DNA of 64,000 bases from Salinisphaera orenii subsp. orenii MK-B5 (GTDB taxonomy: Bacteria; Pseudomonadota; Gammaproteobacteria; Nevskiales; Salinisphaeraceae). Shown here piece after piece: positions 20,375-47,999 of the stretch (the first letter of the stretch is position 1; every line of letters starts with the position of its first letter). A program made the translations under genes and the position numbers. The stretch is taken from positions 1-64,000 of the forward strand of contig NZ_AYKH01000007.1 in assembly GCF_003788635.1 (NCBI RefSeq), in the 5' to 3' direction. Under the pieces are notes generated by a model, which was not told where the DNA came from, searched no databases, and saw only the letters and a list, made by a program, of their open reading frames with translations.

Positions 20375-20692
20375 ATGGATGAACAGACCCGCATCGAAGC
20401 CGAAGCGGCCGCGTTTCGCGACTTGATCAAGCACCTACAGCAGCGCACGGACGTGCAGAACATCGACCTGATGAACCTGGCCGGTTTCTGCCGCAACTGC
20501 CTCGCCAAGTGGTACCGCGCCGAGGCGGAACGCCGCGGCGTGACGATGGATTACGACGAGGCCCGCGAGCACGTCTACGGCATGCCCTACGACGAGTGGA
20601 AAACGCGCCACCAGGCCGAGGCCAGCCCCGAGCAGAAGCAGCGGTTCGAGGCCACGCAGTCGATGCACGCCGATACGCGCGGCGGCAATTAG
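20375..20692 (+). CDS. DUF1244 family protein
   Basis: A 105-residue cytoplasmic protein of the DUF1244 family, conserved in proteobacteria but without known function. It shows the family's core: LIKHLQQRTDVQNIDLMNLAGFCRNCLAKWY at about 16-46 and VYGMPYDEWK at about 65-74. ATG 20375 has GAGGA 8 bases upstream. An ATG at 20369 is only 2-3 bases from that ribosome site. Its TAG stop codon is also the first three bases of repeat copy A. Confidence 0.9.
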   Translation: MDEQTRIEAEAAAFRDLIKHLQQRTDVQNIDLMNLAGFCRNCLAKWYRAEAERRGVTMDYDEAREHVYGMPYDEWKTRHQAEASPEQKQRFEATQSMHADTRGGN

Positions 20693-20985
20693 CGCTCGCT
20701 GACACGTCGTGCGAACGCCGCGTTGGGCGATCGCATATCGTGTGAGGCAAGGCACGAGTCGCCGATCCGGCGCGCCACGATCGGGACGTGAAAGGCCGCA
20801 GACGTCGATGCTCATCGGTCCATACGGAGCCCGACCCGAAGGGCCAAGGCTCCGAGACATTCACGACGTGCGGCAATTCGGTGTGATCGCACGCGGTCGC
20901 GAAAGTCGCTGCGCGGCGTGCGTTACGTCTCGTCACGTCGCATGACGGTGTTCAGCGCGCTCGCATGACGATTGACCCGGCACTG
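20690..20985 (+). repeat. MITE-like repeat, copy A (diverged)
   Basis: One of four related non-coding units in this window (others at 32169, 41410 and 47688). The left end reads TAGCGCTCGCTGACACGTCG, and the right end holds an imperfect inverted counterpart (GCATGACGATTGACCCGG). Internal blocks shared with the other copies include CGAACGCCGCGTTGGG, CGAGTCGCCGATCC and GACGTGCGGCAATTC. The central hairpin is CGGAGCC/GGCTCCG with inner CCC-GAA-GGG. The opening TAG is the stop codon of the DUF1244 gene. It is the shortest and most worn of the three clear copies. Confidence 0.75.
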
Positions 20986-21243
20986 GGCGACGTGCACCGC
21001 AGCCTCGGCGGCGCCCGACGGCGCCCGACGGCGCCTGATGGGCCGGGCATCCCGGGTGGGGGGTCGAAGACCGCTCGGCCGAGTGGACGCGGCGGCTGCC
21101 TGTCGTGACCGCTCCGGCTTTCGGGGCGGCTCGGCGGGAGCCTGCGACCGGGCCGATACGACTGTTCGGCCGCTTCGGCCACGGCTTGTCTTCGACCGGT
21201 TGGTTCGCTATAGCTCTTGCATCATTTCGCCACCGGTCGCCCC

Positions 21244-21630
21244 ATGCGCACAATGGCTTTGAAATACCTGTCGATCACGCTTGTGCTGGCCGGACTCGCC
21301 GGCTGCTCCGACGCGCCCGAAGCGGCCGATGTGCAGCCGCTGGTGGAGGACTCGTTGCGCAGCGGCATCGTCCATGCGCGGTCGATGGCCGAGACGCTCG
21401 GCGGTGCCGACGGTGTCGCATTCATCGAGTCGCTCGGCGCGCCGGAGCCGGCGGACGTGCAGGTCGAACATGTCCAGATCCTGGACAGTCGCGAACTCGA
21501 CCACGGCGACTACGATTTGGACGTGCGCTACGACGTGGTCGTCGGCGACGAGCGGGAGGTCGTCAGCCGGCGCCTTCGGCTCAACGAGACCGCCGATGGC
21601 TGGCGTCTGGTGCCGGCGCCATCCCGGTGA
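21244..21630 (+). CDS. Small lipoprotein, unknown function
   Basis: A 128-residue predicted lipoprotein. The N-terminus (residues 1-21) is a signal peptide with lipobox LAGC, so Cys would be lipid-anchored after cleavage. The mature part is acidic (many Asp and Glu) with an alternating beta-strand pattern in residues about 75-125. I do not recognise a family. ATG 21244 fits the signal peptide best; ATG 21253 is possible. A 258-base non-coding stretch between repeat copy A and its start shows nothing else. Confidence 0.7.
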   Translation: MRTMALKYLSITLVLAGLAGCSDAPEAADVQPLVEDSLRSGIVHARSMAETLGGADGVAFIESLGAPEPADVQVEHVQILDSRELDHGDYDLDVRYDVVVGDEREVVSRRLRLNETADGWRLVPAPSR

Positions 21631-21791
21631 TGCGTCGGTGCCACGGGGGGTGCCGATGAAACCCACGCCACGCGTGACGGTTCGTCCATGACCGGCCGCC
21701 GGCGCTGCGTCCGGCGTATCGGCCGTGTGGCTCGGGGCGAATGCGGCCGAGGCTCGTCGCGACGCCGTCCGAGTGCCGGGGTCTGAGCGGC

Positions 21792-22172
21792 ATGTGGTAT
21801 GCGCTGACCGCCGATGCGGTGCTTCTTATCCACCTGGCATTCATCCTGCTCGTGGCCTGCGGCGGCGTGCTGGCTCTGGCCTGGCCGCGACTGGCCTTCG
21901 TGCACGTGCCGGCCGCCTGCTGGGCGGCGTATGTGTCGTTTTCGGGGCGCCTCTGTCCGTTGACGCCGCTCGAGCAGGCGCTCAGGCGAGCGGCCGGGCA
22001 GGCGGGTTATAGCGGTGGTTTCATCGATCATTATCTGATGGCGCTGATCTACCCGGCCGGGCTGACACGATCAGCACAAATGTTCATCGGCGCGACCGTG
22101 ATCGGTGTCAATGTCGTGCTCTATGCGTGGCTGGTCTACCGCGCCCGGCGCTCGTGCGACGGCAAGCGTTGA
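21792..22172 (+). CDS. DUF2784 membrane protein
   Basis: A 126-residue inner-membrane protein of the DUF2784 family, function unknown. Three to four helices are visible. Family features include the N-terminal ADAVLLIHLAFILLVACGG, the SGRLCPLTPLEQALR stretch after the second helix, and YSGGFIDHYLMALIYPAGL before the last. ATG 21792 starts four residues before the first helix-forming stretch. Confidence 0.9.
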   Translation: MWYALTADAVLLIHLAFILLVACGGVLALAWPRLAFVHVPAACWAAYVSFSGRLCPLTPLEQALRRAAGQAGYSGGFIDHYLMALIYPAGLTRSAQMFIGATVIGVNVVLYAWLVYRARRSCDGKR

Positions 22173-22461
22173 CGCGATTCGCTTCGGGCCGGGCGCGACT
22201 GCGCGGTTTCGGGCGGGGGGATCGCTTGCGCCTATGACGGCTCCAGGTCGGCGCCGGCTGTTACGTATGCTACAGCGGTCATCGGTGCCCCTGACGTCAC
22301 ATGATGCGCGTGGGTACCGGCGCATGCCGGTTTCATCCCATCACGCCTACGGCGGTCGAACCGGGGTGACTCCACGACGGGATCGGGCCGAGGACGGTCA
22401 TGATAAGTAATGCACAAGCCGCCGCGCGGTGCGGCGAATCGAGACGTTTTTCGGGGTGACG

Positions 22462-23445
22462 ATGAATCGACTCGATGTCAGCGGCATACGCTGGGATCTG
22501 GTCATGGCGCTGGCGGCCGTGGTGGTATTGTGCTTCATCGGCCGTGACTGGCTCAACGGCCTGACGCTGGATGTGCTGCATTACTTCGAAGCACCCGCGC
22601 ATGTGCCGACGGGCAAGCCGTAAGGCGAGTACCGACTCTTCGAGGTCGTCTCCCACTGGTTTCCGCTGGTGGCGATGATGCTCTTCGTGGACGTCTATCT
22701 GCATGGCACGTCCCGCCACCAGATATGGCTCGCGCTGGTGGCCGGCTTCTTCGCGCTGGCGATGTACGCCGCCGAGGTTAACTTCGTGATCGGGCGTCAC
22801 CCGATGTGGATCGGTACGTTCTTCGGCGGCTGTCTGCTTCTGCTGCTGTGGCCGCGGCGGCAGTGGCTGCTGCTGGGGGTGCTCGCCGCCGCGGGCGTGG
22901 CGATGCAGGCCGGACACATCGGCGACTGGTGCTCCAACCATTGCAACGAGATCGGCGGACTGAGCGATGATGTCGCCTATAACTTCCGCATGGTCGAGGA
23001 AGAGCTCGAGATGCTGGGGGCGGCCCTGTATCTGCTGTTCGCGCTGATGTGCTGGGCGGCTGCCGGCCGGGCGCCCTCCGGCCGGCATCTGCTGGCACGC
23101 GCGGCGTGGCTCGTGCCGCCGATGCTGGTCGCCTACGGCAACAGTCTGCAGCACTATCAGCGCGATCCCGGCCATCTCGTGCTCAAGTTCGCACTGTTCA
23201 CGGTGCTGGCCGGCGCCGCGGCGCTGCTCTGGCGGCTGCGCGGCGGCCGGCGCGAGCTGGATGCGCCACGTGCTGCCCTGTCCTTTGTATTTGCCTTCAT
23301 ATTCATCGTGATGCCCGCGATCTACGGTAACTACAGCGCCAAGATATGGACGGTCCATGTCTATATCTGGGTGCCGCTGCTCATCTGTCTGTATCGCTAT
23401 CTGGTGCACCGCCCGCCGATGGTGTCGGCAGATACGCGTGCATGA
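22462..23445 (+). pseudogene. Multi-pass membrane protein gene broken by an in-frame TAA
   Basis: One reading frame runs from ATG 22462 to the stop at 23443-23445 but is interrupted by TAA at 22621-22623. Both sides read as the same membrane protein. Before the TAA there is one helix and a VLHYFEAPAHVPTGKP loop. After it come GEYRLFEVVSHWFPLVAMM and about seven more helices, with a histidine- and cysteine-containing loop HIGDWCSNHCNEIGG. The coding signature resumes at once after the TAA, so a single recent nonsense mutation is the simplest reading. A downstream restart (ATG 22675) would give about 256 residues. I do not recognise the family. A sequencing error cannot be excluded. Confidence 0.7.
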
Positions 23446-23688
23446 AGCGTCGCTCGCGGCGCCTGTCGTGGACGCTGACCTGTCGCGAGGCGCCCGCCGG
23501 CCGGCGATGAAGCGTGCCGGCCTTGCCATGGTCGCTGGCGCCGGCGCGGCGCGCGCTCTGGCAACGTCTGCCCTGAGCGTATCGAATCGCGCCCGCGGCC
23601 TGCCCCGATGCCGCGGGAAGCGTTTATCCTGTGCGCTTTTACGCGGACCGGGCGCAGCGCGGGCAGACCGCGAACCGGGAATTACACG

Positions 23689-24681
23689 ATGAAGGCGAAG
23701 ACCATCTATCACGGGCTGCGAAGACGCGCCCAGGCCACCCATACCGTGCCTCGCTTCGAGGGGCGGGAATCCCGGCATCACGAGAGCGTACCCCTATGGC
23801 GACTGCTCGCCGAGGCTTCGGCGCACGCGCTCAAGGCGCGCCGGCGTCTCACCGATGTCGAGACGTTCGTTCAGTTCGCGGGGTTTCCGCGCTCCGGTCA
23901 TTCGTTGATCGGCTCGATTCTGGATGCGCATCCGCAGGCCCGGGTCTCCCACGAACTGGACGCCATGGGGCTGCTGCTCCAGGGCGTGCCCTTGGCCGCG
24001 ATCTTTTCGCTGATTGACCGCAGGGCGCTCGAATTCACGCGTCACGGTCGCTGCTGGAACGGATTCTCCTATCTCGTGCCGGGCGGCGCGCACACGCGCG
24101 TCGATCCGCTGCGGGTGCTGGGCGACAAGAAGGGCGATCAGGCGGTGCGCCGCGTGGCCCAGGACCCGGGATTGCTGGAGCGGCTGAACCGGCGGCCGCG
24201 GCCCGCGAAGAAATGGATTCTGGTGCTGCGCAATCCGTTCGACAACATCGCCACCATGTCGCTGCGCAAGGGCCGGGCCTACGATGAACTGCGCACGTCG
24301 GTGGCGGCCGAGGATTTCGACGCGGCGCTGCGCGCCTATCAGGCCGATGGCCGCATTGCCGATGTCGCGCTGGATTCCCAGATCGAGGACTACGCCGCGC
24401 TGTGCCGGACGGTCGCCGACATCAAGCACCGGACGGCGCCGGCCCACTGGTTCGAGTTGAGCCACGAGGCCCTCACGGCCGATCCCGAAGCCACCATCCG
24501 TTCGATGCTCGCCTTCCTCGATCTGCCGGTCGATGAAGCCTACGTTCGGGCCTGCAGTGGTCTGGTCCAGCGGACGCCGAACCGCAGCCGCGATCGGCTC
24601 GACTGGCCCCAGGACCGGCAGGCGCGCGTGGCGGCACTGACGCGCGAATTCTCGTTTCTCAATCGCTATGATGAGACATGA
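23689..24681 (+). CDS. Sulfotransferase family protein
   Basis: A 330-residue enzyme expected to move sulfate from PAPS to a sugar or other hydroxyl. The PAPS 5'-phosphosulfate loop is FAGFPRSGHSLIGSIL (about 63-79). The 3'-phosphate-binding part is likely WILVLRNPFDNIATMSLRKG, with the conserved Arg and Ser. The late segment LSHEALTADPEATIRSMLAFL is also family-like. Its stop overlaps the next gene's start (ATGA), so the following glycosyltransferase is translationally coupled. Context suggests decoration of a surface glycan. Confidence 0.88.
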   Translation: MKAKTIYHGLRRRAQATHTVPRFEGRESRHHESVPLWRLLAEASAHALKARRRLTDVETFVQFAGFPRSGHSLIGSILDAHPQARVSHELDAMGLLLQGVPLAAIFSLIDRRALEFTRHGRCWNGFSYLVPGGAHTRVDPLRVLGDKKGDQAVRRVAQDPGLLERLNRRPRPAKKWILVLRNPFDNIATMSLRKGRAYDELRTSVAAEDFDAALRAYQADGRIADVALDSQIEDYAALCRTVADIKHRTAPAHWFELSHEALTADPEATIRSMLAFLDLPVDEAYVRACSGLVQRTPNRSRDRLDWPQDRQARVAALTREFSFLNRYDET

Positions 24682-25658
24682 GCGCGGTCGATGATCGATC
24701 CATCCATCTCGTCAGCTGTATCGGGGTCGATACGGAATTCGCGCATCTGCCGCATTTCCTCGATCACTATCTTGCGCTCGGCGTCCGGCGCGAGAACGTC
24801 CATCTGATACTCAATACCGACGATGCGGATTCACCGAACCTGGCGCGGGCTCGCGCGCTGCTCGAGAGCCGGCATCTGCCTGCCCCCGATGTCTGGATCG
24901 GGCCCTACACCAGTGACGCCATGTGGGCGCGACGGCGCGACCTGCAGACAGAACGCGTGCCCGCCGACGCTTGGGTGGTCAGCGCCGACGTGGACGAGTT
25001 CCACGAATATCCCGCGCCACTGGGCGAGATCATCGCGCACTGCGAGGCACTCGGCGTCAACTGCGTGCAGGGCGTGTTCATCGATCGCATCGCCGCCGAC
25101 GGTCGCCTGGTCGACGTCGACCCGGACCAGCCGATCGGGCAGACGTTCGCCCTGCAGGGCGATGTGCAGTGCTCGGTCGGCCGGACCGGGCGGCATCACG
25201 ACTGGTTCGGCACGATCAAGGTCATGCTGCTGAAGGCCGAGCTTCTGCCGAGCCGGGGTGGGCATCATCCGCAGAACGGCGACGTACCCGTGCGTTATCT
25301 GTTCGACCGGCATCTGGCGCGCTTTCCCGCGATCGGCCGCGCGCGCTTCAGGTTCTTCATCCCGTTCCGGGTGCATCACTTCAAATGGACCGCGTCGATG
25401 GCGCAGACGCTGCGCCGCCGGCTCGCGACGCCGGGCGTCAGCGCCGCGGGCGCCGAGTACGGCCGCAAGCTGGTCGACTACGTGGAGGCCGAGGGCGGCA
25501 TCCGCCTGGCCGACATTCCGCTGCGCTCGCGCCACCGGGTCGATCCGCTCGGCTGGCGTCGGCGCGTGCGGATGCTCCGCCTGATGGCGTCCGCGCTGGC
25601 GCGGGGCGACGACGCGCGCTATATCGCTCGACGAATCCGACAGAGATTGTCCACATGA
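24678..25658 (+). CDS. Glycosyltransferase family 2/92-like protein
   Basis: A 326-residue protein of the Glyco_tranf_2_4 / family 92 type. The N-terminus (CIGVDTEFAHLPHFLDHYLALGVRRENVHLIL) matches the start of that family. The metal- and sugar-nucleotide-binding motif is in VVSADVDEFHEYP (about 102-114). A late histidine-rich part, FRVHHFKWTASM, also fits. The donor and acceptor are unknown. Both ends overlap neighbours by ATGA, giving a tightly coupled three-gene set with the sulfotransferase before and the propeller protein after. Confidence 0.82.
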   Translation: MSAVDDRSIHLVSCIGVDTEFAHLPHFLDHYLALGVRRENVHLILNTDDADSPNLARARALLESRHLPAPDVWIGPYTSDAMWARRRDLQTERVPADAWVVSADVDEFHEYPAPLGEIIAHCEALGVNCVQGVFIDRIAADGRLVDVDPDQPIGQTFALQGDVQCSVGRTGRHHDWFGTIKVMLLKAELLPSRGGHHPQNGDVPVRYLFDRHLARFPAIGRARFRFFIPFRVHHFKWTASMAQTLRRRLATPGVSAAGAEYGRKLVDYVEAEGGIRLADIPLRSRHRVDPLGWRRRVRMLRLMASALARGDDARYIARRIRQRLST

Positions 25659-26821
25659 CCGACTGGCAGTTGCAGCAACTTACCCACGGCACCGACGAAG
25701 GGCGTTTCCATACGCACAGCTATTACGATATCAACGTCTTCGATTCGACCAGCCGCTATGTCGCCGCGCACTGCGTGACGTTTGCCGAACGCCAGCCCAC
25801 GGCCGACGATTCGGTCGAGGTCGGGGTCATCGATCTGGACGACGACGCCCGCTGGATCCCAGTGGGCACGAGCTATGCGTGGAGCTGGCAGCAGGGGCCG
25901 ATGGCGCAGTGGGTGCCCGGTCGAACGACGCTCATCTGGAACGACCGCGACGACGATACCTTCGTCACCCGCGTGCACGACCTGGCGAGCGGCACCACGC
26001 GCACGCTGGGCCGCCCCAGCTACGCCGTCGACCCGAACGGGCGCTTCACGCTGTCTCTGAACATGGCGCGGCTCCAGGCGGTGCGCCCCGGCTACGGCTA
26101 CGCCGGCGGTCGCGGCGCGCGGCTGTCCCAGCGCGCGCCCCGCGGCGACGGCGTCTGGCGCCAGTCGCTGGACGACGGCGGCGATACGCTCGTGCTGTCG
26201 GTCCGGCGCGCCGTGCGCTTTCTCATGTCGCGGATCGGCTGGCGCGCCTATCTGCGCCACACCCGGTCGCGCTATCGCTACTGGTTCAACCACGTCAAGC
26301 TCTCGCCCGACGGCCGCCGTTTCACCGTGAAGCTGCGCTTTCGCACCCGCGGCGGCGGCTGGAACGACCGCATGGGCGTCAGTCTGACCTGCAACGTCGA
26401 CGGCAGCGATCTGCGTCTGCTCGCGAGCGCGACCTCGCACGTGATCTGGCTCGACAACCGTTCGCTGTATTTCTGGCAGCGCGACGGTTTCTATCTGTAC
26501 GCGGACGAAGCGCCCGAAGGCCGGCGCATTCGTCAGATCGCGCCCGAAGCGCTGGGTGCCAACGCGCACGTGCGCTATTTCCCGGGGTCGACGCGGCGGT
26601 TCGTCTTCGATACGCCCTACGCCGAGGAGATCGATCTCTGCGTCTACGACGAGACGGACGCGAGCGCCCGCCGCATCGCGCGCTTCGGCAACCATCGCCC
26701 GAGCCGCGGTCCGTTCCGCTGCGACCTGCACCCCTGTCCGAGCCCGGACGGCCGCAGAATCGTGGTGACGTCGCTCGATGACGGTGGACGCCAGCTGTAT
26801 CTGCTGCACGGTTCGGATTGA
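25655..26821 (+). CDS. Beta-propeller (TolB/WD40-like) protein in glycan cluster
   Basis: A 388-residue protein with repeated beta-propeller-like blades, such as HVKLSPDGRRFTVKLRF, LRLLASATSHVIWLDN, VRYFPGSTRRFVFDT and CPSPDGRRIVVTSLDDGGRQLYLL. These resemble TolB-type and oligogalacturonate-lyase-like repeats. There is no signal peptide, so it should be cytoplasmic. Its exact family is not clear to me. Coupling by ATGA to the glycosyltransferase suggests a role with the same glycan: recognition, lyase or epimerase activity. An Arg-rich insertion around 185-212 is unusual. Confidence 0.72.
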   Translation: MTDWQLQQLTHGTDEGRFHTHSYYDINVFDSTSRYVAAHCVTFAERQPTADDSVEVGVIDLDDDARWIPVGTSYAWSWQQGPMAQWVPGRTTLIWNDRDDDTFVTRVHDLASGTTRTLGRPSYAVDPNGRFTLSLNMARLQAVRPGYGYAGGRGARLSQRAPRGDGVWRQSLDDGGDTLVLSVRRAVRFLMSRIGWRAYLRHTRSRYRYWFNHVKLSPDGRRFTVKLRFRTRGGGWNDRMGVSLTCNVDGSDLRLLASATSHVIWLDNRSLYFWQRDGFYLYADEAPEGRRIRQIAPEALGANAHVRYFPGSTRRFVFDTPYAEEIDLCVYDETDASARRIARFGNHRPSRGPFRCDLHPCPSPDGRRIVVTSLDDGGRQLYLLHGSD

Positions 26822-27037
26822 GAACGACTCGCGGCGAGCGGATCGGGCGACCGGGGCGCGTGCCCGGCGTCTGCCGCGGCATCTGCGCCCCCGGATTGCC
26901 GCGGCTTCGCCCGTCGTTTGGCGGTGCGGGCTTGAATCACGGCGGGTCGACCGTGATCCATCGATTCCGGCTGGGTGGAGTCCGCGTGGTGGGCCCACTG
27001 GCCGCGGCCGAGCGAACTGACTCTTGAAAGGAATGGC

Positions 27038-28249: not shown

Positions 28250-28325
28250 GTCCGGCGAGTCGCGGCGTGTTCCGGTGGCGGACGCCGCTGCGAATCCGAT
28301 GCTCGAGGGTGGCGAGGGGCGCACT

Positions 28326-28356
28326 GCGACCGGTATCCGGTCGCGCCGGGCCTTTT
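28326..28356. terminator. Hairpin between convergent genes
   Basis: GCGACCGG-TAT-CCGGTCGC is a perfect 8-bp stem with a 3-base loop, followed by CCTTTTG shortly after. It sits between the ends of the glycosyltransferase (28249, plus strand) and the cytochrome fusion (28414, minus strand). It can act for the plus-strand transcript and perhaps both. Confidence 0.6.
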
Positions 28357-28413
28357 GTCGCCCACGCGATGATTCCGTCCGGCGTCTCCGGCGGCGGTGG
28401 CTCGCGCCGCGAT

Positions 28414-30138: not shown

Positions 30139-30197
30139 CTCGGCATCTCGGTCGCGGCGGGTTCCGCTTCTGCCTTCGACCGCGCGACGCAGCGGCT

Positions 30198-32168: not shown

Positions 32169-32477
32169 TTGGGCCTGTCAACACTTCCTGCGAACGCCGC
32201 GTCGGAGACCGCACATCGTGTTCTGCAAGGCGCGAGTCGCGGGTCGTGGCGCGCCACGATCAAGACTGGCAACGCCGCAGAATGCCCATGGTTGTTTCAT
32301 GGGCGGCCCAACCCGTCGGGACAAGCGCCCCACGAAACGACCAGGGTGCGGCAATCCAGCGTTGTCGCGCGCTGGCGCAGAATGATTGCGCGGCACGCGC
32401 TACGCCGCGACTTGCCGCCAATGGTCGATTTTCAGGACGCGCTTGGCGCGGGCTCGTATGAAGTGTTGGCAGCCCTA
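32169..32477 (+). repeat. MITE-like repeat, copy B
   Basis: A 309-base non-coding unit with imperfect terminal inverted repeats: left TTGGGCCTGTCAACACTTCC, right (reverse complement) TAGGGCTGCCAACACTTCAT. It aligns along its whole length with copy C (47688) and less closely with A and D. The central hairpin pairs GGGCG with CGCCC around an inner CCC-GTC-GGG. The outermost CTA at 32475-32477 is, on the minus strand, the TAG stop codon of the adjacent zinc-ribbon protein gene. No reading frame in it looks coding. Confidence 0.85.
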
Positions 32478-33953
32478 GCCGACACCCGTGGCCACGGCGG
32501 CGGAGAAGATCGTCGGCGAGCTCGGCAGCATATCGCCGAGCGCGGCGGGTGCCCAGTGGGGCAGCGACAGGGCCAGCAGCGCCAGAATCAGGGCGGCGGC
32601 CATGCTGGCCCGGCTGGCGGTATAGCAGGAGAGCGCCTCGGCCACCGGGCCGCTGCAGGTGTGTCGGCGCGCCGTGCGACGACTGCTGCGGTGTTCCAGT
32701 GCTGCGGCGCACAGCTCGATCGCGGCGATGCTCAGGAAAAACATCGCGGCGGTGATCGACCAGTGCGCTCCCAGCCTGGCGAGCAGCCGTCGTCCGGTCT
32801 CCGGCCACGGCCCGCTGAACCACGGTGGCAGCGTCGCGGCCTGGGCCGGTGCGGTGAGCACGAGACCGGCGACCAGCATGCCTCCGAGCAGGAGTACGCC
32901 GCTGAACAGGCCGGTCGCCAGGCGCTGGCCGTGGCGTCGACGCTGTCGGCGAATCAAGGCGGCGAGACGGCTGCGCAGGCCGTCGACGCGTGCCGGCGAT
33001 GCATGCGCTTCGGGCCACGGCATGAGCCCGTCGCGCGCGACTCGCGCGCCGGTGATGCCCCGGCCCGTGGCGCTGGCGTTCACGTCTGCCAGAATTCGCC
33101 GCGGATGCACGAACCGGCGCCGGCGTTCCATTCGGTCGAGCATCGTCTCGATGCGTTCGATCTCGACGCGTGCGGTCGCCGTGGCGATCTCGTCCACGAG
33201 TTCAGCGCCGGTCAGGAGCGTATCGTCGGCCTCGTTGCTCACGAGACGCATGCGCCGGTCATCGAAAGTGACGTCGATGATGTGGATGTGCTCCGGGCGG
33301 TATGTCGACTCCAGTCGCCAGCGCCCCGGTTGCAGCAGTTCGATCGCCGTGAACACGAAGCGATCGCCGTCGCTCAGTTCGCGCTCCACGGCGGGGCCGA
33401 CGAGAGTCTCGTGATCGCCGCAGTAGATGTCCTGCGTGCGTTCGGCGCAGGCCAGCACGGCCTGCAGGCGGGCGCCGCGGCTGTAACGGCCGGTGCCACG
33501 GCAGACCGCGCAGCGGTCGGTGCCGGTATCGGCCGTGTTCGGATCGCTCGTGGTGCCGGCGCAGTCCGGGCAGGCGACCGTGCTCATCACCGTGTGGCCG
33601 ATGCGGGCGGTGAGGGCCGCCCATGGCAGGTGGCCGTGCTCTGCGATGGTGGCGCGATGGTCGGTCAGTGCCGCGTCCAGCGCCATGCCGACGCGGCGTC
33701 GATGGAGCTCGATGCGGGCCGGCAACTGCGCCTCGGGCACGATCTCCAGCCGGGGCAGCGCGGGATCGGGATCGCCCGCACAACACAGCGCCTCGCGGGT
33801 GACCCGGACTACGCCGATATCGTGTCGATGCACGGCCACCGGCACGGGGTCGACCGCGTGGATCGTCAGATCGGCGCGCAGCATTGGGTCCACGCCGCGT
33901 GCGCGCAGCCGGGAGACGAATGCGTTGTGCGCGACATCGGTCATCGTCGTCAT
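32475..33953 (-). CDS. Zinc-ribbon membrane protein, unknown function
   Basis: A 492-residue protein I cannot assign to a family. The N-terminal ~320 residues look cytoplasmic. They contain a DnaJ-like zinc ribbon: CPDCAG at 128-133 and CAVCRGTG at 148-155, separated by an acidic loop. Residues about 215-300 include a long charged helical part (RVEIERIETMLDRMERRRR). The C-terminal third has about three membrane helices (around 345-370, 400-420 and 450-470). Its TAG stop coincides with the terminal bases of repeat copy B, so the original C-terminus may have been cut or kept exactly. Start ATG 33953; ATG 33944 is possible. Confidence 0.75.
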   Translation of the reverse strand: MTTMTDVAHNAFVSRLRARGVDPMLRADLTIHAVDPVPVAVHRHDIGVVRVTREALCCAGDPDPALPRLEIVPEAQLPARIELHRRRVGMALDAALTDHRATIAEHGHLPWAALTARIGHTVMSTVACPDCAGTTSDPNTADTGTDRCAVCRGTGRYSRGARLQAVLACAERTQDIYCGDHETLVGPAVERELSDGDRFVFTAIELLQPGRWRLESTYRPEHIHIIDVTFDDRRMRLVSNEADDTLLTGAELVDEIATATARVEIERIETMLDRMERRRRFVHPRRILADVNASATGRGITGARVARDGLMPWPEAHASPARVDGLRSRLAALIRRQRRRHGQRLATGLFSGVLLLGGMLVAGLVLTAPAQAATLPPWFSGPWPETGRRLLARLGAHWSITAAMFFLSIAAIELCAAALEHRSSRRTARRHTCSGPVAEALSCYTASRASMAAALILALLALSLPHWAPAALGDMLPSSPTIFSAAVATGVG

Positions 33954-40451: not shown

Positions 40452-40516
40452 TTCCGGACGCGCCGACGCCATTTAAGAGGTTGAGCGATGGGCTCGTTAT
40501 CAGAGAGGGCATCTCG

Positions 40517-41386
40517 ATGAATGCACTGCGCACGACCTTCCTGCTGGCCGGGTTGACCGTGCTTCTCGTGCTGGTCGGCAACGCGCTCGGCGGCACCGGC
40601 GGCATGGTCATCGCACTGGGCTTCGCCGTGGCGATGAACTTCGGCAGCTACTGGTTCTCCGACCGTCTGGTGCTGAAGATGCACGGTGCGCGCGAGGCGG
40701 GCGCCGACGAAGCGCCGGAGCTGCACGGCATCGTCCGAGAGCTATCGCAGCGCGCCGGTCTGCCGATGCCGAAGGTCTACCTGATGGAATCGGCCACGCC
40801 CAACGCGTTCGCCACCGGTCGCAATCCGACGCACGCCGCGGTTGCGGCCACCACGGGCCTGATGCGGTTGATGAACCGCGAGGAACTGCGCGGCGTGCTC
40901 GCGCACGAGCTGGCGCATGTGCGTCACCGGGATACGCTGATCAGCGCGATCGCGGCGACCTTCGCCGGCGCGATCGCCATGATCGCCAACATGGCGCAGT
41001 GGGCCATGCTGTTCGGCGGTTTTCGCGGCAACGACAATCAGGGCGGCGGCATGCTGGGCGGCCTGGCGATGATGATCCTGGCGCCGATCGCCGCGACGCT
41101 GATCCAGCTGGCCGTATCGCGTTCGCGTGAATATGCCGCCGACGCGGGGGGCGCCGAAATCGCGGGTAGCCCGCGGGGCCTGGCCAGCGCGCTGCGCAAG
41201 CTGGAACAGGCCAATCACGCCCAGCCGATGCAGTCGGCCGAGCGTAACCCGGCCAGCGCGCATCTGTTCATCGTCAACCCGCTGAGCGGGGCGAGCGTGT
41301 CGAAGCTGTTCTCGACCCATCCGGCCACGGAGGAGCGGGTCCGTCGCCTGGAGTCGATGGCCCCGGGCACGCGGGCGCGGATGTAG
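40517..41386 (+). CDS. htpX: Membrane zinc protease HtpX
   Basis: A 289-residue membrane metalloprotease of family M48 that degrades misfolded membrane proteins. Two N-terminal helices lie at about 5-21 and 29-45. The zinc motif HELAH is at 130-134, the third ligand Glu lies in [10 protein letters not shown], and further helices lie around 145-190. The C-terminal [15 protein letters not shown] is typical. GAGAGGG is 7 bases before ATG 40517. A small hairpin follows the stop, then repeat copy D. Confidence 0.95.
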
Positions 41387-41392
41387 CCGCGG

Positions 41393-41409
41393 CCGGCTGA
41401 CGAAGCCGG
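41393..41409 (+). terminator. Short hairpin after htpX
   Basis: CCGGCT-GACGA-AGCCGG forms a 6-bp stem 7 bases after the htpX stop, followed by TGGCTGTTTGG. The weak T-content makes it a modest candidate. The left end of repeat copy D starts directly after it. Confidence 0.4.
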
Positions 41410-41694
41410 TGGCTGTTTGGTCAGCATGTCGTTCGAACGCCGCGCTGGACGCCGCATGTCGCGTTCAGCGCGGTGCGGCTCGGATTGCGAGGGCTGCCGA
41501 TCGGAATGTGCGGGGCGACAGGGCGGTCGTGGCGGATGACTCATCGACCGCCCGTCGACGGACCAGACGCCCCGTAAAATTCGCTGGACGCGGCAACCGA
41601 GCCTTGCCGCAAGCGGGCGAGCGGGGCGCTGCCACAACGCTTCGTCCGGGTGCGCAACAGTGTCGGCGCGGGCTCGGATGCAGTCGACGGTCTA
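41410..41694 (+). repeat. MITE-like repeat, copy D (diverged)
   Basis: About 285 bases aligning with copies A-C. Matching blocks in order: GTCAGCA and CGAACGCCGCG at the left, CCGCATGTCGCGTTC, then GGTGCGGCTCG. The centre has GACGCCCCGTAAAATTCGC and GACGCGGCAACCGAGCC. The right has GGCGCGGGCTCGGATGCAGTC. The left boundary is approximate. The outermost CTA at 41692-41694 is the TAG stop codon of the minus-strand gene at 41692. The central stem seen in A-C is hard to trace here, so this is the least certain copy. Confidence 0.65.
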
Positions 41695-41997
41695 ATACGG
41701 CCCCGCGCCGGTCGCGTTCCGGCGTTCTCGGCGCAGACGCTCACTCAGATCGTCGGCGTTGCGGTCCAGCCGGCGCGCCTCCGATGCGCTGTCGAGTCGC
41801 TCGCGGTTCTGCTCCAGCTGCCGGGACAGGTTGTCGCGCTGCCGGCTGCGCGAATCCAGGCCGCGATCGAGGCTGTCCGACCCCGCGCGCCCGGCGGGCG
41901 TGCGGTGGTCGTTCAACCCGGCGGCCAGCGCCGGCGCCGTCACGACGCCGGCGAGCGACAGGATCAGGATCAGGCTCGTGCGGCCTCGGTAGCGCAT
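41692..41997 (-). CDS. Small secreted Arg/Asp-rich protein
   Basis: A 101-residue protein with a signal peptide at about 1-25 (ending PALAAG). The mature part is extremely rich in Arg, Asp, Glu, Gln and Ser with a helical, coiled-coil-like repeat (SLDRGLDSRSRQRDNLSRQL, then LDSASEARRLDRNADDLSE). I do not recognise a family. Its TAG stop coincides with the terminal bases of repeat copy D, so the last residues may derive from the original gene end. Confidence 0.65.
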   Translation of the reverse strand: MRYRGRTSLILILSLAGVVTAPALAAGLNDHRTPAGRAGSDSLDRGLDSRSRQRDNLSRQLEQNRERLDSASEARRLDRNADDLSERLRRERRNATGAGPY

Positions 41998-42105
41998 TGG
42001 GACCTCCCGCGATATCGGCGTCCGTCCGGGCGGTTACGTCGGCGTGCGCCGGCGCGATGCGGCGCGGCCGCCGGCCGCCAGCGGCGAGCTGCCCGCTGAC
42101 GGGCT

Positions 42106-42537
42106 TCAGCCGCCGCTGATGTAGTGCTCGAGCTGTTTGATGAGAAAGCGCTGTTCAGCAATCACGGCCTTGACGAGGTCGCCGATGGACAAGACTCCGA
42201 TCAGCGTGTCGTCCTCCATGACCGGCAGATGGCGGAAGCGCTTGTCGGTCATCAGGGCCATGCATTCCTCGAGGGTTTCCGAAGGCTCCGCGTAGGCGAC
42301 GTGCGTGGTCATGACGTCGCGGACCGCGGTCTCGCGGGACCGCCGGTTCTCGAGGGTGATCTTGCGCGCGTAGTCGCGCTCGGACAGCAGGCCGACCAAC
42401 CGCCCGCCGTCGAGCACCAGGACGGCGCCGATGTTCTTGTCGGCCATGAGCTTGATGGCGTCGTAGACCGTGTCGTCCGGGGCCACCGACCACATGTCGG
42501 TGTCCTTCTCCCGCAGCAGATCCCTGACCCGTTTCAT
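42106..42537 (-). CDS. CBS-domain pair protein
   Basis: A 143-residue cytoplasmic protein made of two CBS domains (about 8-65 and 74-130). They contain TVYDAIKLMADKNIGAVLVLDGGRLVGLLSERDYARKI and SETLEECMALMTDKRFRHLPVMEDDTLIGVLSIGDLVK. Stand-alone CBS pairs bind adenine nucleotides and report energy state, or tune a partner enzyme; no partner is evident here. It lies alone between a small secreted protein gene and the OmpA gene. Confidence 0.94.
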   Translation of the reverse strand: MKRVRDLLREKDTDMWSVAPDDTVYDAIKLMADKNIGAVLVLDGGRLVGLLSERDYARKITLENRRSRETAVRDVMTTHVAYAEPSETLEECMALMTDKRFRHLPVMEDDTLIGVLSIGDLVKAVIAEQRFLIKQLEHYISGG

Positions 42538-42664
42538 TTATCTCTCCAGCGCAGTTCGGTTGTCGGCTCGAGTCTAGAAGGTCCGCGCCCGACGGTATAG
42601 CGCGGCCCACCGGACGGGACAGCGCTGCGCGCGTATCGGCGGCGTTCGGGGCACGATCTCCGAG

Positions 42665-42696
42665 CGCACCCGAGGCTCGTCCGGGCCCCGGGTGCG
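42665..42696 (-). terminator. Hairpin after the OmpA lipoprotein gene
   Basis: CGCACCCG (42665-42672) pairs perfectly with CGGGTGCG (42689-42696), 15 bases past the OmpA-family stop codon on the minus strand. The 16-base loop can pair partly within itself. No U-run is present. Confidence 0.5.
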
Positions 42697-42711
42697 TCGG
42701 TCACACCGGAT

Positions 42712-43392
42712 CTAGTCGGAAACGACGCTGAGTTCCACGCGCCGGTTCTGGGCGCGCCCGGCGGCGGTCTCGTTGGTCGCCACCGGCTCGGACTCGCCGT
42801 GGCCTTCGGTCGCCGTGATGCGGCGCGTGTCGATGCCGGCATCCATCAGATACGTGCGCACCGATTCCACGCGGCGCTGCGACAGGTCGAGGTTGTAGGA
42901 CTCGGAACCGATGCTGTCGGTGTGGCCGTCGATGCGGAACCGCACGTCGGGACTGGCCTCCAGCGCGTCGACGACGTTGTCGAGGCGGTTCTCGGCGGAC
43001 ATCGTCAGATTCGACGAATCGAACTCGAAGGTCACGCCCTTGAGCACGATCGGCGACTGCTTCTCGATCGGGCAGCCGCGGGCATCGACTTCCACCCCGC
43101 GCGGGGTGCCCGGGCATTCGTCGCGGCTGTCGGGTACCCCGTCGCCGTCCGAATCGCCGTCGGTCTGGGCGATCTGGTCGCCGCACTCGGCCCGCATTTC
43201 CTTCTTGGGCGCGTTGGGCGTCTGCCAACAGTTGCCCTCGGCATCCTTGTAGACGTTGCCGTCCGGGTCGACGACATAGGCGCCGCCGTCGTTGTCGGCA
43301 TCTGCGGAAGGCGGTGCGGCGGTACAGCCGGCGAGTGCGATCGCCGCCGTCGCCGCCAGGGCCAGGCCGCGCCAGTCGAAAATGGTTTTCAT
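42712..43392 (-). CDS. OmpA-family lipoprotein with TSP3 repeat
   Basis: A 226-residue protein. The signal peptide ends in the lipobox LAGC with Cys23, so it is anchored to a membrane, probably the outer one. Residues about 78-110 form a calcium-binding thrombospondin type-3 repeat (DGDSDGDGVPDSRDECPGTP). The C-terminal ~115 residues form an OmpA peptidoglycan-binding domain, with RIDGHTDSIGSESYNLDLSQRR and GHGESEPVATNETAAGRAQNRRVEL. It should tie the outer membrane to the cell wall. A hairpin follows its stop. Confidence 0.93.
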   Translation of the reverse strand: MKTIFDWRGLALAATAAIALAGCTAAPPSADADNDGGAYVVDPDGNVYKDAEGNCWQTPNAPKKEMRAECGDQIAQTDGDSDGDGVPDSRDECPGTPRGVEVDARGCPIEKQSPIVLKGVTFEFDSSNLTMSAENRLDNVVDALEASPDVRFRIDGHTDSIGSESYNLDLSQRRVESVRTYLMDAGIDTRRITATEGHGESEPVATNETAAGRAQNRRVELSVVSD

Positions 43393-43578
43393 CGCTCGTT
43401 CTCCCTTTATCGCTTGTTGTTCGTCGAGAGCGGCCGCCGCGCGATAGATCCGCCGGCGTCCGATGTTCCCTCTCTTGTTTTTCGTGTCGTTCTGCCCGAG
43501 GGCAGCACACGATCGAATACCATGTTTCGTAGGGTCGCGGCAATCGTCGGGATGGGCGCGGCCGCGCTTCGGTCCGGG

Positions 43579-44760
43579 TCAGTCGGGCGCGATCGGTCCG
43601 GGGCGGCGGCCGGCCCGCCATGCGATCGCCCAGATCGCCAGGCCGCCGAGCGCGAGCACGCAGCCGACGATGCCCGTCGAGCGCAGGCCGAAGCCGGCCG
43701 CCAGCGCCAGACCGGCCAGCCAGGGGCCGAGCGCGTTCGCGGTGTTGAAGGCCACGTGGTTGAGCGCGGCGGCGAGATTCTGGGCGTCGCCGGCGACATC
43801 CATCAGCCGGGTCTGCAGCACGGTGCCGAGCGCGCCGCCGATGCCGATGCAGAACACGTCGACACTCAGCAGCCAGACGTTGCCGGCGACCAACGGAAAC
43901 GCCGCCAGTGCCAGCGCGCTCCATACCAGCAGCCCGCCGGCGGTGGGCATGAGCGCGCGATCGGCCAGCCGGGGCAGCACGATATTGCCCAGCGTCATGC
44001 CGACGCCGAAGATCGCGAGCACGGGCGGCATCCAGCGCTGGCCGACACCGGTGACAGCGTCGAGCGTAGCGGTGAGATAGGTGTAGACAGAGAACATGCC
44101 GCCGAAGCCGATCGCACCGATCGCCAGCGTCAGCCAGACGGCCGGCCGCGCCAGCGCGCCCAGCTCGCGCAGGGGACTGGCCTGGGCCGCAGCCCGATCG
44201 TGCGGTGCGAACAGCAGAATCAGGGCCGCGGCGAGCAGCGCCAGAGCGGCGATGACCCAGTAGCCGGGCCGCCAGCCGGCAAGCCCGCCCAGCCAGGTCG
44301 CCAGCGGCACGCCGACGATGGTCGCGGCGGTCAGGCCGAGCATCACGTAGCCGACCGCCTGCGTCCGGCGCGCCGGCGCGACCACGTCTGCGGCCACAAG
44401 CGAGGCCAGACCGAAATACGCGCCGTGCGGCAGGCCGCTGAGAAAGCGGAAGCACACCAGCCAGCCGTAGTTCGGCGCCAGCGCGCTCAGCGCGTTGCCG
44501 GCTGCGAACAGCAGCATGAGGATGAGCAGGAGCGGCTTGCGGGCCATGCGCGCGCCCAGCACGGTGATCACCGGCGCGCCGAAGACGACCCCGAGGGCGT
44601 AGGCGCTGATGATGTGACTCGCCGTGGACGGATCGATATCCAGACTGGCCTGAATGAACGGCAGCAGGCTCATCGTCGCGAATTCGGTCGTTCCGATGGC
44701 GAAGCCGCCGGTTGCCAGGGCGATGAGCACGAAAAGCGGATTGGTGGGCGTCTGGGACAT
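43579..44760 (-). CDS. MFS transporter (drug/sugar efflux type)
   Basis: A 393-residue major-facilitator protein with 12 helices. The N-terminal pattern FVLIALATGGFAIGTTEFATMSLLPFIQASL and the loop 2-3 motif GARMARKPLLL match the DHA1 / AraJ-like efflux group. ATG 44760 starts close to helix 1. Upstream in-frame codons (to 44874) are Arg-rich and unlikely. The substrate is unknown. It is divergent from the TraB/GumN gene. Confidence 0.92.
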   Translation of the reverse strand: MSQTPTNPLFVLIALATGGFAIGTTEFATMSLLPFIQASLDIDPSTASHIISAYALGVVFGAPVITVLGARMARKPLLLILMLLFAAGNALSALAPNYGWLVCFRFLSGLPHGAYFGLASLVAADVVAPARRTQAVGYVMLGLTAATIVGVPLATWLGGLAGWRPGYWVIAALALLAAALILLFAPHDRAAAQASPLRELGALARPAVWLTLAIGAIGFGGMFSVYTYLTATLDAVTGVGQRWMPPVLAIFGVGMTLGNIVLPRLADRALMPTAGGLLVWSALALAAFPLVAGNVWLLSVDVFCIGIGGALGTVLQTRLMDVAGDAQNLAAALNHVAFNTANALGPWLAGLALAAGFGLRSTGIVGCVLALGGLAIWAIAWRAGRRPGPIAPD

Positions 44761-45021
44761 GGCGCAGGGCTCGGCGGGAGCGAACTGGGAGTGGCGCGAT
44801 CGATTCGGCGGGGCGCGGCGCCGGCCTGTGCGAGCACGGCACGATCGCCGCGACGGGGGCGCATCGATGCGCACCCCGGCCGGCCGTCCAGTCTAGCCCG
44901 GCCATTGTTGCGTTGCGGTAAATGCGGTCGTGACGCCGCGGCATGGGTCGGCATCGCCGCCGGGGTGACGCGCACGCCGCGGGCAGCGATGATGAGGGCA
45001 CCACGACACACTGGGCTGGCC

Positions 45022-45891
45022 ATGCGCTGCGCCGGAATCGCTCTACTCGCCGTAATCTGGCTGACCACCGGATCCGCGCTCGCCAGCCCGGTTGGTCTGG
45101 TCTGGCGGGTCGAAGGTGCCGAGAACCATGTGTATCTCGCCGGCTCGATGCACATGCTGCCGCCGCGGGCGTATCCGCTGCCGCCGCCCTACGAACGCGC
45201 CTATGAGGCGTCTGAACGGCTCGTGCTGGAGGCCGATCAGGCGGCGCTTCAGCGGCCGCAGGCGCGCGACGCCCTGCTGGCGGCCGCCCGCTACGACGCG
45301 GGCGACCTGCGCTCGCACGTCGGCGAGGAGTTGTATCGGCGCACGCGGGCCGTGGCGCGCGATCAGGGGCTGTCGATGCGGCGGCTGGACGGCTATCGGC
45401 CCTGGTTCGTGGCCATGGCGATCGAGATGCAGTCCTACCGGGCGGCCGGCTTTCGCCCGGACCTCGGCCTCGACGGCCATTTCCACGAACGCGCGCTCGC
45501 CGACGCCCGCCCGGTCCAGCCGCTGCAGGCCATCGACGCGCACCTCGCCATCGTCACCGACATGCCGGCATCGCTGTCGCGCGACCAGCTCGCCATAACC
45601 CTCGACAGCGCCGACGAACTCGCACAGGCGCCGGCCGACATCTATGCCTACTGGCGCAACGGCGACGCGGCAGGGCTGGCGGCCTCCGTCGCCGAACAGG
45701 CCGACGCCTACCCGGCGCTCTACGACCGCCTGATCTACGATCGCAACGAGGCCTGGCTGCCGACCATAGAGCGCCTGCTCTCGCGATCCGGCAACGCCCT
45801 CGTGCTGGTGGGCGCGGTTCATCTCGTCGGCCCGCGTGGTCTGGTCGAGCGGCTGCGCGCGAGCGGACACACGGTCACCCGCGTGGAGTGA
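45022..45891 (+). CDS. TraB/GumN family protein
   Basis: A 289-residue protein with a signal peptide at about 1-22. The family's two GxxH-type motifs are present: YLAGSMHMLPP near 39-49 and LVLVGAVHLVGPRGLVERLRASG near 260-282. It also has the Glu/Asp-containing LEADQAAL and the long helical middle. TraB/GumN proteins are related to Tiki-type metalloproteases; function in bacteria is uncertain. ATG 45022 fits the signal peptide; upstream ATGs at 44991 and 44994 are possible. Confidence 0.88.
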   Translation: MRCAGIALLAVIWLTTGSALASPVGLVWRVEGAENHVYLAGSMHMLPPRAYPLPPPYERAYEASERLVLEADQAALQRPQARDALLAAARYDAGDLRSHVGEELYRRTRAVARDQGLSMRRLDGYRPWFVAMAIEMQSYRAAGFRPDLGLDGHFHERALADARPVQPLQAIDAHLAIVTDMPASLSRDQLAITLDSADELAQAPADIYAYWRNGDAAGLAASVAEQADAYPALYDRLIYDRNEAWLPTIERLLSRSGNALVLVGAVHLVGPRGLVERLRASGHTVTRVE

Positions 45892-45919
45892 CGCCGCTCT
45901 CGGCGGCGGCGCGGCGTTA
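45891..45919 (+). terminator. Hairpin at the end of the TraB/GumN gene
   Basis: ACGCCGC and GCGGCGT form a 7-bp stem beginning at the last base of the stop codon, with a GC-rich loop that can pair further. TTA follows. Moderate terminator candidate. Confidence 0.45.
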
Positions 45920-46376
45920 GACCCGCGTGGCGATAGTGGCCCGATCTGTCGATCACCGCGACGCCCGCGGCCCGTCTAAGCCCCCCTCCACGCCATGACC
46001 GGCCGGGCGTCGCGGTCGGATCGGAGCCCGTCCTGGCGCGATCGTCCAACGTCATCCCTTTCGGTCTCCAGCGATGCGGGGCCGGGACCGTGGCTTCGGT
46101 GAGCACGCCGGCCGCGGCCTCGGCGGATTGCAGAGGGCGATGGCATGCATGGCCCGGACGGGGTTGTGCCGCCGCCGGCGCTTGCGCATCGATATGGGCA
46201 CGCGTTACGGCGCCGCGTCGACGTAGGGTGCGCGCAGGCACCGCGGCCTCAGAACAGGCGCCGACCGCCCGGTCTGCCGGACAGGTGACGTCCGAGACGA
46301 ACCACATCCCTGTCAGCTGTCGTCACGATCCCGATCCGAAGCTGATTATTACGTGCTTATAAGCCGTTCGGTCCGG
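45892..46376. other. Gene-free stretch between convergent genes
   Basis: Apart from the hairpin at its start, these 485 bases show no supported gene or repeat. A short AT-rich patch (TTATTACGTGCTTATAA, near 46346-46362) lies close to the end of the second MFS gene. Confidence 0.5.
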
Positions 46377-47615
46377 CTAGCCCCGGGTCGGATCGTGGGC
46401 GGAAAACACCCGCTGATAGGCGTAGATATAGGCGCCGAAGAAACCGGCGGCGATGTAGAACGGGGCCGCGAGCATGCCGCCGCCGAACAGCAGACCCGCG
46501 AACAGGGGGCCGATAGCCCGCGGCAGCTGGATGGCCACGCTGCCGGTGCTGACGGCGGCGCCGCGCCGGTGCGGGCGCACGAGGCTCACGGTCAGCGCCT
46601 GCCGGGCCCCGGCGGTGCCACGGTTGAGCGCCGAACGCGCGACGTGCAGTGCGGCGGCCATCCAGAAGCTCGGCACCAGCGGCAGCACGAGCAGGATCGC
46701 GAGCCCCAGACTGCGCATCCAGACCACAGCACGGACCACGCCGATCCGATCCACCAGCCGGCCGGCGAACAGCGACGAGACCGCGGTGACACCATAGGCG
46801 AGCGCCATGACCGGGCCGATGTCGGCCGGTCCGCGCCCGAAACGCACCGCGAACCAGTAGGTCATCAACGGCCCGACCAGGCCGATGGCGATGCCGTTGA
46901 GCGCGTTGACGCCGAACAGCCAGCGCATGAGCGCGTTCTCGCTTCGCCGGGTCGCGCGGTCGGCTTCTGCGTCCGCGGCCGTTCTCGCTGTTGTAGCTTG
47001 TAGCGCCGCTGCCGGTGCGTCACGCGCGAGCGCGATCAGGACCAGACAGACGAGCGAGCCGGCCAGCACCAGCGCGAACAGGGGTCGGTAGGCCAGAGGG
47101 CCCGGCAGCAGCTCGCCCAGCAGGGCCGGGCCGGCCCCGAGCAGCGCGCCGATGCCCATGCCCGAGAACCCGATGGCCATGTTCAGGCTGTACACGCGGC
47201 CGCGCTCGCGCCGGGGGAGGGCCTGCGACAGCCATGACAGCTCGATCGGTGCGAAGGGGCCGCTGCTGCCGTTGGCGCCGCGCCCGAAGCCGCCCACCAC
47301 GGCGGCGATCGCGAGTGCGGCGGGCGCGGCCGTGCACAGGGCGGTGACCGCCGCCGCGGCCTGTGCCGCCTCGTAGGCGAGCAGAAAGCCGCGGCGGCCC
47401 AGACGGTCACTGGCCGGGCCCAGGGCGACGATCAGCGCGGTATCGATCAGCAGGCCGGCCGTGAACAGCGCCCCGATCGCCGGCGCCGACCAGCCGAGTG
47501 CGTCCAGATAGAGCGCGAAGGCGACGATCAGCGCACCCTGGCCGACGCTTCGCGCCGCGCGCGCAGCCAGAAGCAGACGGGTATCGCGGGGCAGGGTCGT
47601 CCAGCGGCGGCGCAT
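46377..47615 (-). CDS. MFS transporter
   Basis: A 412-residue major-facilitator protein with about 12 helices. The N-terminal RLLLAARAARSVGQGALIVAFALYLDALGWSAPAIGALFTAG and the loop 2-3 motif GPASDRLGRRGFLLAYE are typical. A second motif-A-like stretch, AGRLVDRIGVVRAVVWMR, lies in the second half. The substrate is unknown. ATG 47615 is chosen over a TTG at 47636. The left end of repeat copy C lies 73 bases upstream of this start. Confidence 0.9.
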   Translation of the reverse strand: MRRRWTTLPRDTRLLLAARAARSVGQGALIVAFALYLDALGWSAPAIGALFTAGLLIDTALIVALGPASDRLGRRGFLLAYEAAQAAAAVTALCTAAPAALAIAAVVGGFGRGANGSSGPFAPIELSWLSQALPRRERGRVYSLNMAIGFSGMGIGALLGAGPALLGELLPGPLAYRPLFALVLAGSLVCLVLIALARDAPAAALQATTARTAADAEADRATRRSENALMRWLFGVNALNGIAIGLVGPLMTYWFAVRFGRGPADIGPVMALAYGVTAVSSLFAGRLVDRIGVVRAVVWMRSLGLAILLVLPLVPSFWMAAALHVARSALNRGTAGARQALTVSLVRPHRRGAAVSTGSVAIQLPRAIGPLFAGLLFGGGMLAAPFYIAAGFFGAYIYAYQRVFSAHDPTRG

Positions 47616-47687
47616 GCGGTGTCGGTGGCCGGGCAAGGACGAAAGCCTAGCACCTGCACCGGCCGCCCGGCCCCGGCCGCAATTGCG

Positions 47688-47999
47688 TAGGGCCTGTTAA
47701 CACCTCATGCGAACACCGCGTTGGGGACCGCAAATCGTGTTCTACAAGGCGCGAGTCGACGATCCGAGTTCGCCACGATCTAGACTGGCAACGCCGCAGA
47801 GCGCCCCTGGTCGATTGTTCATGGGAGGACCAGCGCTTCGGGCCAAGCGCCCATGAAATGAACAAGATGCGGCCATCCCGCGTTGTCGCACGCGGGCGCA
47901 GAGTGACCGCGCGGCGCGCACGACGTCCCGTCTTGCCGCCCATGGTCGATTGTCAGGAAGCGCTTGGCGTGGGGTCGTGTGAAGTGGTGACAGGCGCTA
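47688..47999 (+). repeat. MITE-like repeat, copy C
   Basis: A 312-base unit with imperfect terminal inverted repeats: left TAGGGCCTGTTAACACCTCA, right (reverse complement) TAGCGCCTGTCACCACTTCA. It aligns from end to end with copy B. The central hairpin pairs TTCATGGGAG with CGCCCATGAA, with the inner loop GCGCTTCGGGCC. It fills the space between the divergent MFS and aspartic protease genes. Its right end lies only 31 bases before the protease start, so it may carry or displace that gene's promoter. Confidence 0.85.

Follow-up and report, generated by a model that had tools for sequence, protein, structure and literature searches.

Which process placed four similar non-coding units, each about 285-312 bp long, within 27 kb of one another in the genome of Salinisphaera orenii subsp. 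orenii MK-B5 (Pseudomonadota; Gammaproteobacteria)? The window, i.e. the whole stretch of DNA analysed here, comprises 64,000 nucleotides (positions 1 to 64,000 of contig NZ_AYKH01000007.1), and a first, sequence-only reading had proposed that its four units are miniature inverted-repeat transposable elements (MITEs). Further copies, same-ended elements in relatives and empty sites all agree with that proposal, as do the features of the units themselves, which are short, bounded by terminal inverted repeats (TIRs), free of any open reading frame (ORF) read as a transposase and associated with a TA duplication and a same-ended partner. Based on these comparisons, the units are very probably a non-autonomous DNA transposon of a conserved-fold superfamily, moved in trans by IS5-family DDE transposases. 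Within that superfamily, which is old, structured, widespread and made up of elements of about 269 bp, they can be placed as a branch.

Four units in the window and their copies in the genus

The units match a profile built from copies in the genome, B and D themselves being part of the seed. The features concerned are the following.

20690 to 20985, plus strand: copy A; profile E 1.6e-36, fold z -0.18; worn, its fold no better than that of shuffled sequence
32169 to 32477, plus strand: copy B; profile E 4e-103, fold z -5.25; the best-preserved copy in the window
41410 to 41694, plus strand: copy C; profile E 7.4e-11, fold z -2.38; the most worn copy, its TIRs hardly recognisable
47688 to 47999, plus strand: copy D; profile E 2.7e-97, fold z -2.11; TIRs intact, TA at both ends
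47688 to 47706, plus strand: left TIR of D, reading TA plus GGGCCTGTTAACACCTC
47981 to 47999, minus strand: right TIR of D, the minus-strand reading of D's end
20690 to 20692, plus strand: left-end TAG of copy A, the stop codon of the DUF1244 gene at 20369-20692 (ORF list; Pfam PF06844)
32475 to 32477, minus strand: right-end TAG of copy B, the stop codon of the minus-strand ORF 32475-33953 (ORF list)
46236 to 46245, no strand: site empty in the window and filled by a copy of about 283 bp in the closest relative, G012 (profile E 7.9e-50); junctions worn, duplication unreadable

Alignment along their length and the profile matches of A to D confirm the sequence-only reading on the four homologous units and their positions, as does the profile search on their single shared orientation; imperfect TIRs near the consensus it had given are also seen. 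Its grouping, with B and C close and A and D worn, does not hold. With copy D as query, BLAST within the window returns B at E 4.5e-79 and A at E 4.6e-22; B and D are the closest pair (81% identity over 305 bp), while A-D and A-B identity is about 70% over 233-235 bp. Copy C is the most divergent, giving short and weak BLAST matches to the other copies (best E 3.4e-4), and it is assigned to the family because of its genome profile match (E 7.4e-11). Taken by itself, the terminal 12-mer does not reach significance in the window, with seven matches against 5.17 expected and 27 of 100 shuffles reaching seven; the case is therefore built on full-length similarity. As the same reading had claimed, copies A and B are non-coding except for a stop codon, the overlap being the terminal TAG of ORFs 20369-20692 and 32475-33953. 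Copy D lies between the 5' ends of the divergent genes 46377-47636 (minus) and 48031-48537 (plus), a placement that might affect their promoters. A minus-strand match to the TIR pattern at 14647-14673, common to the window and G012, was rejected as a unit given its position within a coding region.

The density of the units had been taken to suggest many copies genome-wide, and these were found. In the 3.67-Mb genome (44 contigs), copy D matched at least about 40 places (46 match rows, with the best 40 of 96 candidates scored), and a 27-base TIR pattern allowing up to three mismatches occurred 45 times (22 forward and 23 reverse), with 0 and 0 for the reversed control. Matches were present in all 13 other genus genomes searched. 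The TIR pattern was matched 251 times in G001, 121 in G006, 64 in G008, 53 in G012, 18 in G009 and 7 in G004, all controls being 0, and the end sequence occurs in named records including Salinisphaera halophila YIM 95161 and Salinisphaera sp. Q1T1-3. Matches at contig ends in G002, G010 and G011 were considered as hidden full-length insertion sequences (ISs) and rejected, the sequence being the element cut at a contig end or filled with N. In the G010 assembly, stretches of N fill the element copies L059, L061 and L067.

Mobility and the candidate partner

Empty sites were looked for in relatives and were found around one copy of the complete genome G191, at a paralogous site in G191 and at window positions 46236-46245, where G012 carries an extra copy. 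For the first, eight of ten relatives lack the element with both flanks on one contig, and their gap is 186-256 bp vs 461-513 bp in G191; the remaining two have no right-flank match nearby. A repetitive extragenic palindromic (REP) sequence of the GTAG type in G191 has an empty form, CTCC-TA-CGGGGGCATGG (paralogous site, L275/L281), and a filled form, CTCC-TA-element-TA-GGGGGCATGG, in which TA is duplicated and one other base is different. At L275, L280 and L281 of G191, the element lands in GTAG-type REP sequences. Copies at CTAA or TTAA sites also begin with TAGGG, and for this reason the duplication is TA and not four bases. A YTAR target was read in 31 of the 37 copies with TA at both ends, out of 44 examined, seven of which came from a search requiring CTAG at one end and seven of which were dropped for lacking TA at both ends. 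Such a target is a hallmark of the IS5 family. As an IS5-type target, it agrees with the one reported for MITEPsy1 (PMC3189936). Mobility is well supported by these sequence comparisons.

Copies B, C and D are not recent, since they are common to the window genome and its closest relative, G012 (95% identity over 16 kb). The orthologous site of D in G009 was rejected as a clean empty site, its 340-bp spacer starting with a degenerate element missed by the profile. Plasmid copies gave no readable empty site.

The sequence-only reading had further claimed that the window holds no transposase and had suggested a past mobilising partner. The former stands for PF01609, the one family searched, whose sole match in the genome is on another contig. 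As for the latter, IS5-family elements of 811-864 bp with the same ends are present in related genomes, and none was found in the window genome; its PF01609 gene was rejected as the partner because its flanks are without element ends. This gene (L031, G000:C1:266993-270310) is a 378-codon open frame, and a neighbouring frame looks by eye like a RecD-type helicase.

PF01609 is present in 11 of the 14 genus genomes. Among 30 genus loci examined, six hold an IS5-family element of 859-864 bp whose two ends match (G001, G003, G006 and G007), and two of the proteins score 249 and 267 bits against NF033580. The first 20 bases of the IS end are identical to those of the element end in G006. Five TIR pairs lying 811-812 bp apart occur in G191, and four lying 826 bp apart plus one of 1953 bp in G345, both genomes also carrying 269-bp elements; the IS ends in these two genomes differ from the element ends at one of 18 bases, and the ORFs read within such pairs code for transposases of the NF033580 type. 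A G345 protein scores 272 bits against NF033580, and two G191 ORFs score 104 and 129 (cut-off 110). The 1953-bp version (L214, G345:C7:1039000-1041200) contains another transposase-like ORF as well (358 codons), which by eye resembles IS30, and is an IS inside an IS. Nitrosospira has IS5 elements of 814-827 bp with related ends. It also has a 117-bp element whose ends are nearly the same but whose AT-rich interior is unrelated (L101, L110 and L114). Judged by matching ends in several genomes, an IS5 partner is well supported.

Superfamily, conserved fold and landing sites

With the 272-bp Aquisalimonas element as query (E<=1e-8; best two candidates per genome scored, some matches partial), 38 of 369 genomes of the class were matched, in 31 of 271 genera and in 29 families. 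A second query at E 1e-6 matched 47 of 398 genomes of the phylum, of which 36 are outside the class and belong to four families, with 32 in a single one; 23 of the 30 loci fetched from this search are near-full-length elements. The interior is homologous end to end across genera and orders. After 16 partial matches had been dropped, 38 of 46 distinct full-length elements measured 268-273 bp, the others 254-295 bp. Near-identical copies are seen in G191 (99% over 270 bp at four other places). The element also occurs on two plasmids of Azotobacter chroococcum, one of Pseudomonas aeruginosa and one of Halomonas, with the match region unannotated in all four. Between the Azotobacter plasmids (L256 and L257), the element together with its right flank matches at 97.5%; the match ends at the left end of the element, which suggests a rearrangement there. 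The 285-286-bp copies of the Acidobacteria metagenome-assembled genome (MAG) LL4.bin34 (L098, L100 and L105) would reflect transfer or misbinning. Phages and Escherichia coli genomes gave no match with one query, and plasmids gave none to window copy B. None of eight loci matched an Rfam 15 covariance model at E<=0.1, and the open literature, a coverage that excludes subscription papers and ISfinder, yielded no description of the element.

Next, the fold was derived from 38 aligned sequences (mean identity 0.65), 11 of 49 having been dropped (three duplicates and eight near-copies or odd lengths). Its 107 consensus pairs form an outer stem of about 35 bp from the two ends, the hairpins H1 and H2, and between these a three-pair mini-hairpin (CCC..GGG). 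Paired cells reach 89.9% vs 72.7% in shuffled and 37-40% in slid versions, and the covariation score is 0.443 vs 0.138 and 0.070-0.086, respectively, the slid versions being at a disadvantage as the structure comes from the same alignment. Double changes, on both sides of a pair, affect 84 of the 107 pairs vs 53.7 in shuffled alignments. None of 500 shuffles attains any of the five measures. Taken singly, 11 full-length elements fold with z -7.9 to -19.2 and the 117-bp Nitrosospira element with z -5.5 (60 shuffles each), and the window copies range from -0.18 to -5.25. The tip of H1 is the most conserved stretch, with a 52-base match at 94% in G776. Conservation of the fold by compensatory change is well supported. 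Since worn copies lose the fold, decay seems to set in after insertion, and what is constrained would be those copies that give rise to others.

Where selection acts on a hairpin as the RNA of one strand, G-U is tolerated and A-C is not. Over 63 sequences, with one fixed G-U pair excluded, the GU:AC counts are 75:38 in H1, 61:127 in H2 and 72:69 in the outer stem. The 25 sequences added after the pattern had been noticed (seven of 30 new loci dropped as partial, two plasmid copies added) give 39:20, 26:55 and 35:33, respectively, and 18 sequences lean one way vs 4. This strand contrast hints at a constraint at the RNA level. A role of H1 in transcripts arriving from the left and of H2 in those arriving from the right has weak to moderate support.

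As the first G of the element comes right after the duplicated TA, all intact ends read TAG. When insertion occurs at a TAG stop, TAG is rebuilt, so that the upstream protein stays complete. In the window genome, 23 of 28 intact ends (26 copies; six of 32 left out as having no intact end) provide the in-frame stop of an ORF of 120 codons or more, vs 13 and 2 in the other frames, and 18 of the 28 show a coding-like GC pattern as judged by eye. Elsewhere, 25 of 79 ends (46 copies) do so in frame vs 9 and 6, and 22 of the 46 copies have such an end. An in-frame stop at their own end is also found for two of six IS copies. Eight proteins stopped by the element were searched, and seven of them have Pfam matches (TatC, aconitase C-terminal domain, molybdopterin-binding, TGT, two Usp and a LysR regulator). 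The ORF next to copy B, 32475-33953, has no Pfam match; its protein is 95.7% identical in G012 over 492 aa, its whole length. Stop-codon placement may reflect a site preference of the transposase or the weeding-out of other insertions.

Competing explanations and known systems

Taken together, gene-less units would be moved in trans by the IS5-family DDE transposases of other elements, and selection on the fold would act on copies that keep moving, not on old ones. Insertion at a TAG stop codon would spare the upstream gene, and many of the surviving copies sit there. With less certainty, a hairpin next to a gene may be transcribed as the 3' end of that gene and fold as RNA, which would explain why G-U is favoured on opposite strands in H1 and H2. 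In the window genome, the family appears old and its mobilising partner is seemingly lost. A wider proposal, which we put forward tentatively as a possibility somewhat short of even, is that of a portable 3' end on the scale of a phylum, with ends tuned to local IS5 transposases, landing on TAG and one RNA hairpin per side, in other words a selected, mobile RNA/DNA structure that many lineages have carried with one and the same fold, and not junk.

Several observations weigh against this account. The 30 copies of the window genome alone yield a poor consensus fold (33 pairs, -13.75 kcal/mol, weak covariation), a failure explained by their being worn and of mixed subfamilies. Frame 1 is also rich in long ORFs in this GC-rich genome (13 of 28 ends). 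With all helices pooled, GU and AC are equal (128 vs 127), which fits a DNA-level or mutational cause, and the distinct pair types (32:21 in H1 vs 25:36 in H2) give a marginal p of 0.06 with sequences that are related and not independent. Promoter and terminator consensus is absent in the two elements scanned. Of ten genomes with the element, four have no NF033580 match (Aquisalimonas, Luteimonas suaedae, HyVt-581 and the Acidobacteria MAG), and in Pseudomonas PA27 and Luteimonas salinisoli matching ends are absent from the NF033580 loci, so another mobiliser is possible in such genomes. Movement by IS5-family transposases is itself something we infer from comparing sequences.

Among the alternatives, the fold could act as single-stranded DNA during replication or transposition, the ends pairing into one double-stranded end, and not as RNA. 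An outer stem that consists of the two TIRs and has no strand bias (72:69) is in line with this, but the contrast between H1 and H2 better suits RNA, and the general view of IS5-type transposases is that they work on double-stranded ends; we regard this option as rather unlikely. Somewhat less probable is that the arms are kept alike by mutation, through template switching or hairpin-templated repair, and not by selection. Equal GU and AC overall and in the outer stem are what a strand-neutral process predicts, and the double changes go mostly from Watson-Crick to Watson-Crick. However, worn copies lose pairing although repair should reach them too, length and architecture are nearly fixed, and the strand on which wobble is favoured differs between H1 and H2. 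Such copying could also contribute jointly with selection.

It is very unlikely that the units are an ordinary MITE, derived by internal deletion from a local IS5 element and with a meaningless interior. The ends do match IS5-family elements and similar MITEs are known (MITEPsy1 and MITEAba12), but the IS interiors show no notable similarity to the element beyond the ends (best interior match 18 bases, E 0.009), for which reason an internal-deletion origin was rejected, and the interior of the element is homologous between genera and orders and covaries. A conserved non-mobile host regulatory RNA or element of the 3' untranslated region, spread by duplication, would fit the fold and the gene-end placement but is scarcely tenable given the empty sites, the insertion with TA duplication at the G191 REP site, the differing neighbours of the copies, the near-identical G191 copies, the plasmid copies and the IS partners with the same ends.

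Read as MITEs of a conserved-fold superfamily moved in trans by IS5-family transposases, the units bear on how such repeats are viewed. MITEs are usually treated as short-lived, lineage-bound IS leftovers. Here, 29 families of the class and four families outside it have one interior in common, which is of near-fixed length and covaries strongly. This makes it testable why a gene-less element keeps its fold, how it keeps up with IS ends that change and whether stop-codon landing permits spread in gene-dense genomes. A covariance model of the superfamily would serve for masking and naming intergenic repeats, thousands of them by estimate and not by count.

REP/REPIN elements are moved by tyrosine transposases. 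They resemble the present element in their inverted-order paired hairpins and intergenic location, but they are without the TIR/TA anatomy, and GTAG-type REPs serve here as landing sites. The repeats bcr1 (Bacillus cereus group), ERIC and Correia/NEMIS fold as RNA and are thought to be mobile; unlike in the superfamily described here, their ends and hosts are unrelated and their host range is narrower. IS5-family insertion sequences (NF033580) share the ends and the type of target, but they encode a transposase and their interior is dissimilar. Triplex/BoxC repeats were considered as the identity of the units and rejected on the basis of the accessible part of PMC4666352. According to the available text of PMC3189936, MITEPsy1 of Pseudomonas syringae is 100 nt long with 18-nt ends, targets CTAG or YTAA with a reported 4-nt duplication, and is rather limited in its spread, similar sequences that are more distant being present elsewhere. 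Like the present element, it is non-autonomous and mobile and has IS5-like ends (those of ISPsy2), but it is shorter and duplicates four nucleotides instead of TA, and the same text does not mention a conserved fold (PMC3189936). MITEAba12 of the Moraxellaceae, as described in the available part of PMC6382973, is 113 bp long, with a 9-bp duplication and outward promoters. Both this MITE, across a bacterial family, and the present element keep a fixed length and show IS similarity, in its case to the resident ISAba12, confined to the ends; the superfamily described here differs in its length of about 269 bp, its TA duplication and its class-wide occurrence (PMC6382973).

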